Assembly: GCF_000374045.1 (NCBI RefSeq)
Contig: NZ_KB893314.1
Span: 457,372 to 521,371, forward strand
Reading direction: 5' to 3'
Source: Segetibacter koreensis DSM 18137
GTDB lineage: Bacteria; Bacteroidota; Bacteroidia; Chitinophagales; Chitinophagaceae
DNA length: 64,000 nucleotides
This document shows positions 45,193-50,259 of the stretch, one piece after another (positions within the stretch are counted from its first letter, which is position 1; every line of letters starts with the position of its first letter). The notes under the pieces are model-generated. The model searched no databases and was not told the DNA's origin. It was given only the letters and a program-made list of their open reading frames with translations. A program made the position numbers and the translations under genes.

Positions 45193-45909
45193 TTAAAGTT
45201 TTTTTATTTTATGGTAGGCTTTCAACTTATCATTAATGTAAAACAGCACATCTTCGTTAGAAGGGTGCTGCCTTAACCAGTTGTAATCAGGCGTGTATTT
45301 ATTCAAAAAGTTTTTTAAGGTGTCTCCTTTCAAACCTGTGTAATATGCAACAATATGCGGAGAAAACCTGGAATCAACATATGCCATTCTTTCTCTTACC
45401 TCAAACATCTGCTCATCTCTTTTTCTATACCTGTCTTTCTTGTCAAGAAGTTTATCAAGATTAAAAGTGAGGCCAAAACCTGAGGGGTGATCTGTAGAAA
45501 GTGTTTTAACAGGTTTTCCCATGCTTTGTTGAAATGAAGTTCTTCGTTCTATGCTGTCTAACTGGTATTTCGTGTACTTTGTAGTTACTGTTACAGTTGG
45601 CAAAACATTTCCTAATGGTGATAAGTAAATGGTAATGGTATCAGTAAAAATATTTGAATAGACGAGTGTGTCGTAATGATAAGATCTTGCAACTGCGTAA
45701 ATAAAATCATTGGGAGAGGCCTGCAGGCGAAAAAATCCCTTCTCAGTAGTCTGAGCGCTCTTCTTAGCGGTAGCATTTGTAATAGTTCCGTTGGGGATCG
45801 CAAAATGAGTAAGACTATCTAAAAGGTAGCCGCTTAATACCCGCGGTTGAGCTTGTATTTTAAAAGATATAAGAGTCACAAAAAGCAATAAAAAAGAGGA
45901 TTTAAACAT
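45193..45909 (-). CDS. Carboxypeptidase-regulatory-like domain protein
   Basis: A 238-residue exported protein with a signal peptide (about 20 residues ending IQAQ). It contains one carboxypeptidase-D-regulatory-like beta-sandwich (about 22-95: RVLSGYLLDSLTHFAIPNGTITNAT, TTEKGFFRLQA, YHYDTLVYSN), which resembles the N-terminal extension of TonB-dependent transporters. No plug or barrel follows. The second half is charged and helical, with RYRKRDEQMFEVRERMAYVDSRFSP. It may bind an outer-membrane partner. The 51-residue gene follows 51 nt downstream on the same strand. Confidence 0.85.
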   Translation of the reverse strand: MFKSSFLLLFVTLISFKIQAQPRVLSGYLLDSLTHFAIPNGTITNATAKKSAQTTEKGFFRLQASPNDFIYAVARSYHYDTLVYSNIFTDTITIYLSPLGNVLPTVTVTTKYTKYQLDSIERRTSFQQSMGKPVKTLSTDHPSGFGLTFNLDKLLDKKDRYRKRDEQMFEVRERMAYVDSRFSPHIVAYYTGLKGDTLKNFLNKYTPDYNWLRQHPSNEDVLFYINDKLKAYHKIKKL

Positions 45910-46196: not shown

Positions 46197-47366
46197 GTGG
46201 ACGAATTGAATATAACAGAAGTAAAAAAATTGCGGAAAAAAGTAAGACCAGTTATTAAATGGACGGGGGGCAAGTACGACGAGTATTCAATGTTTTCTGA
46301 ATTTATTCCTGATTTTGAAAGATATTTTGAACCTTTTTTTGGCGGTGGAGGAGTTTTCTTTGCATTGCAACCTTCGACACCGGCGTTTTTAAATGATAAA
46401 AGCAAAGACCTCATAAAATTTTATTCGCTTATTCATTCGACATCTTTGCAAAAAGAATTAAATACCTATTCAGATGCATGGGACGAAGCAGGAAAACTGT
46501 CAGGCGAATTAAAGCCACTTTTGTTACCAATATTTAAAAAATTTATAAGCGACAAAATTGACGTCAATACTTTAAAAGAAAGCATTAAAAAAATACTGGT
46601 CGAAATATGCTTACATGAAAATTACCAGTTATTTAAAAAGTCCTTTATTATCTATCCTGACAAGTTTATAAAGAAGCTGGATGCATCAATTGTCGATAAA
46701 TTTAAGAGGATTAAAGCAATTTGCGTCAAAGAAAACAGGAGCTTTAATGACAACGAACTAGATGACCATATTGAAACCGGAATAAAAAGCGGTCTTTATT
46801 TATTTCTGCGTGAACTTATGAATTTGCAATACGCAGGCAAGCTTAATTTAAATGATGCGAAAACGGCAGCCAATTGGTATTTTATAAGAGAATTCTGTTA
46901 TGCATCTATGTTTCGTTACAACAGGCAGGGCGGATTTAATATTCCCTACGGGGGTATTGCTTATAACAAAAAGAATTTCCGTTTAAAAGTGGAAAATATT
47001 TTTGTAAAAGATATTGTGCAATTATTTGAAAAGGCTAAATTTTATAATCATGATTTTTCTGAATTTCTTTTTAAAACAAAACCCAAAAAAAACGATTTTA
47101 TTTTTTTAGATCCGCCGTATGACAGCGAGTTCTCTGAATATGATCAGAATTCTTTTACGAAAGATGACCAGGTAAGGCTTAGAGATGTATTGCTGCAAAC
47201 AGAAGCTAAATGGATGCTGGTTATTAAAGAAACTGATTTTATAAGATCGTTGTACGCTGTACCCCAATGCAGGTTTATTGAATTTGACAAAACATATACT
47301 TACAATGTCAGGGGAAGAAATAATCGTGACACAAAACATCTGATCATTGTAAACTACACCATCTAA
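46197..47366 (+). CDS. D12-class DNA adenine methyltransferase
   Basis: Transfers methyl from SAM to adenine N6 in a specific DNA sequence. The 389-residue protein starts at GTG 46197. Motif X is IKWTGGKYDEYS (20-31), motif I is RYFEPFFGGGGVFF (42-55), and the catalytic motif IV is DPPY at 305-308 (FLDPPYDSEF). The order X, I, target-recognition region, IV is the Dam/D12 (alpha) arrangement. The large central region (about 60-290) is the target-recognition area and is longer than in Dam. The stop is 3 nt from the start of a PD-(D/E)XK protein gene, so this is the modification half of a type II restriction-modification pair. The specificity is unknown. Confidence 0.94.
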   Translation: MDELNITEVKKLRKKVRPVIKWTGGKYDEYSMFSEFIPDFERYFEPFFGGGGVFFALQPSTPAFLNDKSKDLIKFYSLIHSTSLQKELNTYSDAWDEAGKLSGELKPLLLPIFKKFISDKIDVNTLKESIKKILVEICLHENYQLFKKSFIIYPDKFIKKLDASIVDKFKRIKAICVKENRSFNDNELDDHIETGIKSGLYLFLRELMNLQYAGKLNLNDAKTAANWYFIREFCYASMFRYNRQGGFNIPYGGIAYNKKNFRLKVENIFVKDIVQLFEKAKFYNHDFSEFLFKTKPKKNDFIFLDPPYDSEFSEYDQNSFTKDDQVRLRDVLLQTEAKWMLVIKETDFIRSLYAVPQCRFIEFDKTYTYNVRGRNNRDTKHLIIVNYTI

Positions 47367-47369
47367 AGC

Positions 47370-47978
47370 ATGGCTTACATCAAGCTGAGTGATTTTATAT
47401 TTGACTGCGACAGGTGTCACACACCTTGTGATGGTGTAAGTAAGGGAACTTATATTTTTAAGAATGATGTTTCGCTTTCTGAAAGCTTCGAAGAAATGCT
47501 TATTAAGCGAATAAATACAGCAGGAAAATACTCAGCAGCAAAAACTCAGAAAGAAGGTTATCCTGATATTGAAATACAAAACCCTGATCGCAGCATTTAT
47601 TCTTATTTAGAAGTGAAAGTGCAACAACGAACGTTTATGCAGGTTAAAAAATATCTTCCCCACAGTAATTTAGAACCTTCTGAAACAATTGCACTCAATC
47701 TCAGCGACCTGCTCAGATATTTTACAATTCAACAAACCACCGGAACATCTACTGTTATTGTTTGGTTTTTACTAAACCGTTTATGTATTGTTGATAAAGC
47801 CTCGTTCAAAGTTTATTTTCAATCTTGTGAAGAGCTGGAACGCATTTATCATTTAGAAAAACAAAAGAGAACTTTTAAGAGAAAATCAGGAGAGGGTGAT
47901 GTTGTGGATGGAGTACATAAAGGTGTAACTGTCAATTTTCATTTTAGTCTTACAGAACTAAAAGAATGGAAATGGTAA
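47370..47978 (+). CDS. Probable type II restriction endonuclease (PD-(D/E)XK)
   Basis: A 202-residue protein translated 3 nt after the adenine methylase. It carries GYPDIEIQN followed by YLEVKVQ: Asp66, Glu81 and Lys83 fit the PD-x(n)-ExK catalytic core of restriction nucleases. An N-terminal DCDRCHTPC cluster with Cys13, Cys16 and Cys20 could bind zinc. The middle part is beta-rich and the C-terminus is basic (KQKRTFKRKSG) then ends in beta strands. No named family was recognised, so the assignment rests on the core motif and tight pairing with the methylase. Confidence 0.78.
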   Translation: MAYIKLSDFIFDCDRCHTPCDGVSKGTYIFKNDVSLSESFEEMLIKRINTAGKYSAAKTQKEGYPDIEIQNPDRSIYSYLEVKVQQRTFMQVKKYLPHSNLEPSETIALNLSDLLRYFTIQQTTGTSTVIVWFLLNRLCIVDKASFKVYFQSCEELERIYHLEKQKRTFKRKSGEGDVVDGVHKGVTVNFHFSLTELKEWKW

Positions 47979-48030: not shown

Positions 48031-50259
48031 CTAGTAAAGGTTAAATTTTTCTATAATTCCTGTTATTTTCTTTTGATATCTCGCCAATTCTTCATTCTGC
48101 TGTTTTATAAAAGAATTGTCTTCAAGCTTGCCGACCACTTCGTCCATTTCTTTTTGATTGTCGTAAGGAATTTTCCTGAAGGGATTCGTATAGTCTTTTG
48201 CTCTTGATTGGTAAATGCCTTGTGTCATCCATTCTCTTGTTGCAAGAGCCGCCCGGAGCAGATCTCTAAATGCTACTTTTCCCAATTTCTTAAGGTGTAC
48301 GCCTGAAACCAATTGAAAGGCTGCCAGTGAATGCGCAAGTTTTTGAGTAGGATACAATTTGGTTTGTTGCGAGTAAAAAGAATGCAACGACTCCCAGGAT
48401 TTTATTTTGCCTTCCCGAATTCTTTTATTTACCAAGCTGATTTCCGTTAGTGGTATCAGCTGTCCGCCAACATTCAACCATTCGTTTAAAACATGTTTAG
48501 TGGAAAGTACATCAAGTAAATTTTCATAGCTCGTAATTCCTTTATTATCTATTAATTGTAGTAATTGGTTTACACCATAAAATGTAATAAGGTCTTTAAA
48601 AATATGATAGCTCTTTATTATTTTAATGATCACAACTTTCCGCCTGGTATTTTCAAAACCTTCGGCTAAAATTTCCAAATCATCTATACCGGGGTCTTTT
48701 TCTTCAAGCAATTTTTTTCCTTTTGCAATAACTTCATCATCTGTACATTCTCTTGCAGGTTCATTTTTTCTAAAATAAGCTTTTCCTGTACATTTTTGAA
48801 ATAACTGTATTGACGTTATTATTTCGTTTATACTATCTGGGGCCAGGTAGTCATACTCAAGATTCTGGATCTTTTCTTGCCGCTTGTCGCGGTCTTTGTA
48901 TTTCCAGCCATTTCTTTCGAGAGCATACATATTGTACATAAACCAATAAGCAGGCATTACAACAAGCCGGTCTCGTGTAACATCATTACTAATTAATGAA
49001 AAAGGTATGGGAATATTTAATTCTGCGGGGTAATCACCTTTTGCAATCATAGTGAAGGTTGCAAACTTTGAATTGTGTTTAAGGCTAACGCATAAGCCGG
49101 GCCAAAAGCCTCTTCCGGCTATTATCTCTCCATCTGCACCCCGGCTGTTGTGATTAGAACCAATGGTTGCACCTGCAGGAATATTGCTTTGTCCCATTAC
49201 TGTGGCTGCACATAAAAACGAGTTATTATGATGCTGCTCGTGGGCCGGAAAAATAAGCGTGTTTAAAACTTCGCAGCAAGAAATAGTTGAATTGTTGCCA
49301 AGATAAGAGTTGATAAGGCGTGCGCCATATTTTAACTGTGAATGATTTGCCATTACAAAACGAACAGCCTTTACACCATAAAACGCACGGCAGCCAAAAC
49401 CCATAATTCCATTTACAATTTCGCACCCTTCACCTATCTGAGATGTACCTTCAGGCCCCGAATGTATTGTTAGATTTTTTAGTTTATTAGCTCCTTTCAA
49501 GTATGCGTCAGCTCCTATCCAAACGTCTTTTATAATTTTACAATTCTTAATAACGGTTCGATCTCCCACCTTCCCGTAATAGCCTCTTTTCTTATCAAAC
49601 TTTGATTCAGTAAATTCTTTAAACTTTTGCAAGAGGACTTCATCATCACGAAACTTTGTCCATAAATAAGCGTCTCCTGCCTCCATTCCGTTAAAAGGAA
49701 TAATCTTTCGCCCACCATTTTCATTGCATACTTCAAGCCATATTCTTACCTCTTCTTCCTCGCCTTCTTTTACAATTCCGTTTCCAAACTTAGCATGATT
49801 AGTAGTTACGAGTTCATTTACATTAACGATAATTACTTCGTTACCAATGATATAATGAGACAGGTAAGTTACATTATCAATCACAACATTGTCACCAAAA
49901 TCGCAGCTTATAATTGTAGAGTTATATAACCCGACAGGAACTTTCAAATCGCTAAATTCCAGGCAAAAAGGTTCCAACTTCCCTATTCTTACAAGTCCAA
50001 AAAACTTGCAGTTTTTTACAAGTTCAGGGTTAAAGGCATCAGATACTAAAATCTTATTCCAGTCGTCTGATGTGTTTCTGTTTCTTACCAGCACTTCAAT
50101 TTCATAAGCAGAAAGCTGGCGGTAATTTATCCCGTTTTTATTCTGCATTTCCCGCAGGTAATATTCATCTTTTCCCTGGGGTAAATAATCAGAGGTAATA
50201 AAGCCGTAACCAAGAGAGGAGATACTTCGCTTTCGAATATCATTTATAGCTGTAGGCAT
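48031..50259 (-). CDS. DUF4954 family protein (left-handed beta-helix)
   Basis: A 742-residue protein of a family found in Bacteroidota and spirochaetes with no assigned reaction. Repeated hexapeptide-like turns (VKNCKIIKDVWIGADAYLKGANKLKNLTI, GEGCEIVNGIMGFGC, ANHSQLKYGARLIN) point to a left-handed parallel beta helix at about 120-390, like sugar-nucleotide acyl- or uridylyltransferases. GSNHNSRGADGEIIAGRGFWPG is a highly conserved segment. The C-terminal 300 residues are helical. It has no signal peptide, so it is cytosolic. Its 3' end faces the restriction gene. A sugar-nucleotide role near glmS is possible but inferred. Confidence 0.9.
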   Translation of the reverse strand: MPTAINDIRKRSISSLGYGFITSDYLPQGKDEYYLREMQNKNGINYRQLSAYEIEVLVRNRNTSDDWNKILVSDAFNPELVKNCKFFGLVRIGKLEPFCLEFSDLKVPVGLYNSTIISCDFGDNVVIDNVTYLSHYIIGNEVIIVNVNELVTTNHAKFGNGIVKEGEEEEVRIWLEVCNENGGRKIIPFNGMEAGDAYLWTKFRDDEVLLQKFKEFTESKFDKKRGYYGKVGDRTVIKNCKIIKDVWIGADAYLKGANKLKNLTIHSGPEGTSQIGEGCEIVNGIMGFGCRAFYGVKAVRFVMANHSQLKYGARLINSYLGNNSTISCCEVLNTLIFPAHEQHHNNSFLCAATVMGQSNIPAGATIGSNHNSRGADGEIIAGRGFWPGLCVSLKHNSKFATFTMIAKGDYPAELNIPIPFSLISNDVTRDRLVVMPAYWFMYNMYALERNGWKYKDRDKRQEKIQNLEYDYLAPDSINEIITSIQLFQKCTGKAYFRKNEPARECTDDEVIAKGKKLLEEKDPGIDDLEILAEGFENTRRKVVIIKIIKSYHIFKDLITFYGVNQLLQLIDNKGITSYENLLDVLSTKHVLNEWLNVGGQLIPLTEISLVNKRIREGKIKSWESLHSFYSQQTKLYPTQKLAHSLAAFQLVSGVHLKKLGKVAFRDLLRAALATREWMTQGIYQSRAKDYTNPFRKIPYDNQKEMDEVVGKLEDNSFIKQQNEELARYQKKITGIIEKFNLY

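Follow-up and report, generated by a model that had tools for sequence, protein, structure and literature searches.

Gene pair in the window

The window, by which we mean the whole stretch of 64,000 nucleotides that was analysed, carries a methylase gene and a nuclease gene that lie head to tail on the plus strand. The ORF listing and the sequence place both genes where the first-pass annotation had put them, with the nuclease gene 3 nt downstream: the last base of the methylase stop codon is 47366, and the nuclease ATG is at 47370. The features discussed below are as follows.

46197..47366, plus strand: D12 methylase gene, 389 aa, GTG start, confirmed as an ORF
46440..46832, plus strand: enlarged, mainly helical methylase region, approximately residues 82-212 (AlphaFold secondary structure and alignment A4)
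47109..47120, plus strand: catalytic DPPY motif of the methylase, D305-Y308 (from sequence; invariant in the 16 rows of alignment A4)
47370..47978, plus strand: nuclease gene, 202 aa, ATG start, confirmed as an ORF
47406..47429, plus strand: Cys13, Cys16 and Cys20 cluster (CxxCxxxC) of the nuclease, invariant in 33/33 rows
47562..47567, plus strand: Pro65-Asp66 of the nuclease core, invariant in 33/33 rows
47610..47618, plus strand: Glu81-Val82-Lys83 of the nuclease core, E81 and K83 invariant in 33/33 rows
47784..47786, plus strand: Cys139, fourth conserved cysteine of the nuclease, invariant in 33/33 rows and new to this analysis

The genes on either side, 45193-45909 and 48031-50259, lie on the strand opposite to the pair. 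The GC contents of the methylase and nuclease genes were 0.33 and 0.35, respectively, compared with 0.37 for the window.

Structure and class of the D12 methylase

The methylase matched Pfam MethyltransfD12 at 1e-30 and NCBIfam Dam at 1.9e-44, above the family cut-off, and its AlphaFold model (pLDDT 84.4, pTM 0.83) matched E. coli Dam in Foldseek at 1.3e-11 with a TM of 0.79 on the Dam length. The curated family score, the DPPY motif and the Dam fold all place it in the Dam/D12 class, as had been read from the sequence alone. The enlarged region proposed at the same time is real, since the model builds long helices at approximately residues 82-212 (82-117, 123-140, 154-179 and 185-212). The enzyme is an N6-adenine DNA methyltransferase of this class, and it is predicted to methylate GAWTC by analogy with a relative encoded on plasmid pA3H9.

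The family assignment also fits a different site, in that the methylase could be a GATC enzyme of the Dam/DpnM type and the nuclease of the D12 loci would then cut GATC. The methylase scores as Dam family and, in alignment A4, keeps the Dam-like stretch MFRYN...FNIPYG, which we take to be an element with a role in Dam. The partners of the nuclease and the motif counts described below bear on this reading.

A D12 methylase 40.9% identical to that of the window was observed in Monoglobales phage CHVD 5762 (L194:2507-3625), where it perhaps serves in self-protection; no nuclease relative was found in the phage collection.

Conserved residues and family status of the nuclease

The nuclease alignment comprises the window and 32 relatives, the 70-aa fragment L042 having been dropped from the alignment and the trees, and contains 24 invariant columns, including C13, C16, C20, P65, D66, E81, K83 and C139. 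Asp66 and Glu81-x-Lys83 of the PD-(D/E)XK core, which had been recognised in the first-pass annotation, are present and invariant together with P65; because the motif residues are invariant across 33 aligned rows, they are not a product of chance. The N-terminal three-cysteine cluster described there also stands, with Cys13, Cys16 and Cys20 invariant in the 33 rows, but the fourth invariant cysteine, Cys139, had been overlooked.

The window nuclease gave no Pfam, NCBIfam or PADLOC match at E <= 1 and no PDB sequence match. When the 33 members were searched, nothing convincing was found in Pfam (best 0.012, TetR_C_42, one member; further weak scores were NOV_C at 0.036 in three members, VRR_NUC at 0.023 and PDDEXK_9 at 0.059) or in NCBIfam (strongest PRK10345.1, one member, 0.0028), and none matched PADLOC at 0.01. 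A profile search of solved structures with the nuclease returned two ribosomal-protein matches only, at E 0.13 and 0.79, PHROGs gave chance-level matches only, and nuclease relatives were absent from the viral-contig, plasmid and phage searches. Among the open-licence papers listed, no title describes the nuclease. The nuclease had been said to resemble no named restriction family, and the searches with the 33 members agree; the suggested new endonuclease subtype is accordingly supported as a sequence family, as measured against Pfam, NCBIfam and PADLOC. Separately, membership of the TdeIII family of restriction endonucleases was considered and rejected, as there was no PF09520 match at E <= 1 and BLASTP against the pA3H9 endonuclease gave E = 88.

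Predicted fold of the nuclease

The AlphaFold model of the nuclease has a mean pLDDT of 86.1 and a pTM of 0.83, with residues 24-29 below 50. Its top Foldseek match was Hjc resolvase (E 2e-5), and VIA aligned it with Hjc 1gef at Z 9.8 over 111 residues at 3.0 Å, with lower scores for RecU, NhoI (Z 7.4), HinP1I, EcoRV, PvuII and DpnI (Z 6.1). AlphaFold, Foldseek and VIA thus agree with the nuclease core that had been suspected, and the assignment to the PD-(D/E)XK superfamily, with the fold by prediction and the PD...ExK residues in place, is well supported. Despite the likeness in fold at Z 9.8, neither phmmer nor the profile search with the nuclease found Hjc sequences. Of the VIA rows, fewer than one in five extend over residues 1-25. 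If, as we infer, Cys13, Cys16, Cys20 and Cys139 lie close together, they probably form the binding site of a single zinc ion or iron-sulphur cluster.

Distribution of the nuclease

The nuclease was found in 5 of 294 genomes of the host family, own genome included, and in the own genome only among the 395 genomes of the phylum sample. A GTDB contig scan yielded 33 nuclease loci from Bacteroidota, Ignavibacteriota, Chloroflexota and one unassigned bacterium (the fragment L042); L006, L008 and L009 were dropped as the same loci as L011, L014 and L041. The window's phylum is taken to be Bacteroidota, since G043, a genome of its family, and the Parafilimonas record L011 share one contig. L039 was trimmed to a downstream start, by coordinates for the alignment and by 55 residues for the two trees, the contig-end rows L017, L018, L019, L022 and L033 were used as is where entered, and L041 was omitted from the second tree and the one-clade test for its long branch.

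Several loci differ from the window in layout. In L041 (5968-6633), a distant relative, 27% identical, lies divergent from a beta-class methylase and an AlwI-family endonuclease. In two Sphingobacteriales loci, L031 (5989-6630) and L032 (5992-6630), the nuclease starts within approximately 20 nt after a PolX-like gene, whose domains were checked in L031 only; no D12- or CcrM-type methylase was found in these two loci in approximately 6 kb on either side of the nuclease, and each genome has a CcrM homologue elsewhere. In G223 (L003:324-2109 / L007:5614-7399), the listed D12 and nuclease ORFs share 29 nt, compared with a separation of 3 nt in the window. Two genomes of the window's genus, G098 and G267 (L057 and L056), keep a 64% identical D12 gene, and the nuclease is absent. 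Because the same gene follows D12 in these two and the nuclease in G223, the presence of the nuclease varies at this place. When nuclease remnants were sought in four D12 loci without the nuclease, two gave short matches (E 0.029 to 0.044) and two gave none.

Methylase partners of the nuclease

Of the 33 related loci, 27 have an adenine methylase gene no more than 1 kb from the nuclease; it is of the D12 type in 19 and CcrM-like in 8 (L010, L014, L033-L038). The window-type D12 adjoins the nuclease in 18 loci, and the nineteenth is L012, where a 63-aa D12 end is found just upstream of the nuclease at the contig edge. Neither type was found within 1 kb in L031, L032, L039, L040, L041 and L042. 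With this linkage and a nuclease fold predicted with good confidence, the compact type II pair proposed from the sequence is supported, and the adjacency of the two genes and their conservation as a pair are well supported.

At the level of whole genomes, among 34 nuclease-bearing genomes (that of L042 with a fragment only), 20 carried the window-type D12, 13 a full-length CcrM homologue, none both and one, that of L041, neither; G223, which has D12 and the nuclease, stands outside this tally. The full-length CcrM homologue (E at most 1.1e-118) was present in all 13 non-D12 genomes, that of L041 excepted, and in 0/20 D12 genomes, and the window genome has no CcrM homologue at E <= 1e-20. Weaker HinfI-class matches occurred in two D12 genomes (G688, 5.8e-59 over residues 11-260; G692, 2.6e-23), and weak matches to other D12 proteins, at 1.7e-13 to 2.6e-11, in the CcrM genomes G697, G698, G702, G703 and G706. 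For L031, L032, L039, L040 and L042, the CcrM homologue is in the genome and none was found in the DNA around the nuclease; the nuclease stands apart from its CcrM in four genomes. As background, none of the 247 genomes examined from the window's phylum, counting its own, had a full-length CcrM-like gene, and the same query matched 6 nuclease-bearing Bacteroidota. In Chloroflexota, 28 of 151 genomes had one, query genome included, and because CcrM is not rare there, the link in that phylum is weaker evidence.

These counts weigh on two other views of the nuclease. It could be a repair or Holliday-junction enzyme of the Hjc kind that lies beside methylases by happenstance, as its closest folds, Hjc and RecU, and its position after a PolX-like gene in L031 and L032 would allow; given its patchy occurrence in the host family and the phylum sample and the presence of one or the other methylase partner, never both, in 33 of 34 genomes, we consider this very unlikely. 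It could also be a type IV-like enzyme that depends on methylation and cuts modified DNA, and DpnI and NhoI are indeed among the VIA rows. A matching methylase is present in the same 33 genomes, however, so that methyl-dependent cutting would be self-destructive, and we hold this view to be extremely improbable.

Exchange of the methylase partner

The nuclease closest to that of the window, at 66% identity, is that of L010, whose partner, a CcrM-like gene, flanks the nuclease gene on the opposite side. The first nuclease tree made the two sisters with support of 95/80. In the second tree, calculated without L041, the window nuclease belongs to a five-row clade with four D12 partners and one CcrM partner (support 100/98). 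Over the 33 nucleases of this tree, in which L031, L032, L039 and L040 were labelled with their unlinked CcrM, the partner label needs three changes, at least two of them forced by well-supported branches, and a single clade of the 21 D12-partnered rows was rejected (p-AU 0.0054), in a test run when the first tree, similarly labelled, was already known. As the D12-partnered nucleases are not one clade, the partners have been exchanged and should protect a shared site, and the nuclease should cut only what both methylases protect.

Prediction of the recognition site

Identity to CcrM is 49-61% among the linked CcrM-like partners, all eight of which keep the CcrM residues R44, P123, R129, K118 and R179, where R44 contacts G and R129 contacts T (PMC6787082). 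GANTC is therefore predicted for them; in the most diverged partner, that of L014, other contact positions differ. For the D12 type, the guide is the pA3H9 methylase, which is 36.1% identical to that of the window over 95% and is reported to have recognised 5'-GAWTC-3' in a digestion-protection assay (PMC10457243). It is the only relative of the window D12 for which we found a published site, none having been found for the 40.9% identical phage methylase, and 36% identity does not fix specificity. Since GAWTC lies within GANTC, both partner types would protect GAWTC. A new specificity had also been suggested for the nuclease, and this is not supported: GAWTC is the likelier target, already given as the site of TfiI and PfeI (PMC3459991 and PMC7556043). 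GANTC methylation has been reported from Chloroflexi genomes in a study of Lake Biwa, which gives no RM partner for a methylase of BS3 most similar to the GANTC enzyme M.SstE37II (58.9%) (PMC6329791).

Motif counts were compared in two sets. The first ranked 256 abNcd words by observed/expected (O/E) ratio in seven nuclease-bearing genomes, G172 and eight controls. GANTC ranked 1, 1, 2, 1, 3, 1 and 1 in the nuclease-bearing genomes, where 1 is the lowest O/E, and 2, 178, 28, 11, 127, 40, 10 and 2 in the controls; it was second in the controls G004 and G295, both without the nuclease. G172 has a 37% identical D12 relative (L059:3628-4809), and no nuclease was found in its genome. Its GANTC rank was 1, with an O/E of 0.45 for GAATC/GATTC and 0.98 for GACTC/GAGTC in the sample, which amounts to strong GAWTC depletion.

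The second set compared 12 system genomes (10 D12 and 2 CcrM, 80-400 kb each) with 13 controls (80 kb each). The nuclease was absent from 13/13 controls, D12 was searched in 9/13, and G004, G354, G444, G464 and G295 were without CcrM among the matches listed; some controls may carry unrelated GANTC systems. The mean O/E of GAWTC was 0.61 in the system genomes and 0.89 in the controls (one-sided p 2.8e-4), and because the two groups differ in taxonomy, the depletion p values are not clean. GAWTC was third of 115 motifs in this contrast, behind GGCGCC and CANTG, and GANTC was eighth, with means of 0.66 and 0.88. Without correction for taxonomy, the O/E of GAWTC was below 0.75 in 10/12 system genomes and in 1/13 controls (G004, 0.74). 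The depletion supports GAWTC or GANTC and proves neither.

Between these two sites, the genomes divide. The nuclease and the D12 methylase may both recognise the full GANTC, which would make the nuclease an HinfI isoschizomer within the same kind of system; the CcrM-type partners are GANTC enzymes by homology, and both the W and S forms were low in G677, G678, G680, G681, G683 and G685. GASTC was depleted about as much as GAWTC in G677, G683, G681 and G685 and less so in G680 and G678, and G689 avoided only GASTC (0.56; GAWTC 0.98), the GASTC counts being small, 10 to 34. In contrast, only the W form was low in G000, G223, G679 and G675 (GAWTC 0.71, 0.48, 0.31 and 0.64; GASTC 0.92-1.08), and the D12 relative with a published site has GAWTC (PMC10457243). 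We consider full GANTC recognition unlikely. G695 showed scant avoidance of either form (GAWTC 0.82, GASTC 1.06).

GATC was also low in several system genomes, with a mean O/E of 0.66 compared with 0.96 in the controls, which favours the GATC reading. Nevertheless, it was not depleted in G223 (1.05), G677 (0.93), G683 (1.00) and G681 (1.04), and the 66% identical nuclease has a CcrM-type partner, whose methylation would leave GATC unprotected. We consider a GATC system quite unlikely.

Proposed restriction-modification system

Taken together, we favour, as a reasonably probable reading, a type II restriction-modification system in which the D12 methylase is paired with a nuclease that cuts unmethylated GAWTC. 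The methylase would methylate the adenine of GAWTC in the host, and the nuclease would cut GAWTC where it is unmethylated, e.g., on entering phage or plasmid DNA, and so would act in defence. Asp66, Glu81 and Lys83 would form a metal-dependent active site, and the four cysteines (13, 16, 20 and 139) with their metal probably hold the N-terminal part to the nuclease core. The genes, the conserved residues, the predicted fold, the pairing and the exchange of partners come from the computations, whereas the site, the metal, the cleavage and the part in defence are inferred. The 27% identical relative in L041, which stands beside an AlwI-type system and has neither partner type, weighs against this reading.

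More tentatively, and less likely than not, the nuclease family may be a movable enforcer of GANTC/GAWTC methylation. Methylases of two unrelated classes could each serve it, and in some Bacteroidota and Chloroflexota it would stand by itself and depend on an unlinked methylase of the CcrM-like kind. If this is true, the cell can no longer do without a regulatory-type methylase wherever a lone nuclease relies on it, and the four-Cys metal or Fe-S site, with three N-terminal cysteines and one C-terminal, would mark a new structural class of restriction enzyme. The findings also suggest that some orphan-looking CcrM-like methylases outside Alphaproteobacteria may have an unlinked, unrecognised nuclease. 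The exchange of D12 and CcrM-type partners around one nuclease means that specificity is constrained by logic rather than assay, and it provides a predicted site, checkable with ordinary enzymes, for a restriction nuclease family absent from the libraries searched.

Comparison with known systems

The archaeal Hjc resolvases are the closest solved fold to the nuclease and have the PD-(D/E)XK core in common with it; the nuclease differs from them in the lack of a sequence match, in its methylase linkage and in an N-terminal Cys segment that lies outside most structural matches. GANTC methylases of the CcrM / M.HinfI type serve this nuclease family as its other kind of partner, as in L010, whose partner matches CcrM 6PBD at 4.8e-131, whereas the window's own methylase is of the D12 class and not a CcrM homologue. 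HinfI, TfiI and PfeI, which cut GANTC or GAWTC, are comparable to the window nuclease through the predicted same or overlapping site. Also among the closest known systems is that of the Psychrobacter plasmid pA3H9 (NZ_MN657089), which combines a TdeIII-family endonuclease with a D12 methylase at GAWTC (PMC10457243). Its endonuclease, a 284-aa TdeIII-family protein (PF09520), showed no similarity to that of the window that could be detected, and the gene order is reversed, but the two systems agree in having two adjacent genes, and their D12 methylases fall in one enlarged length class.
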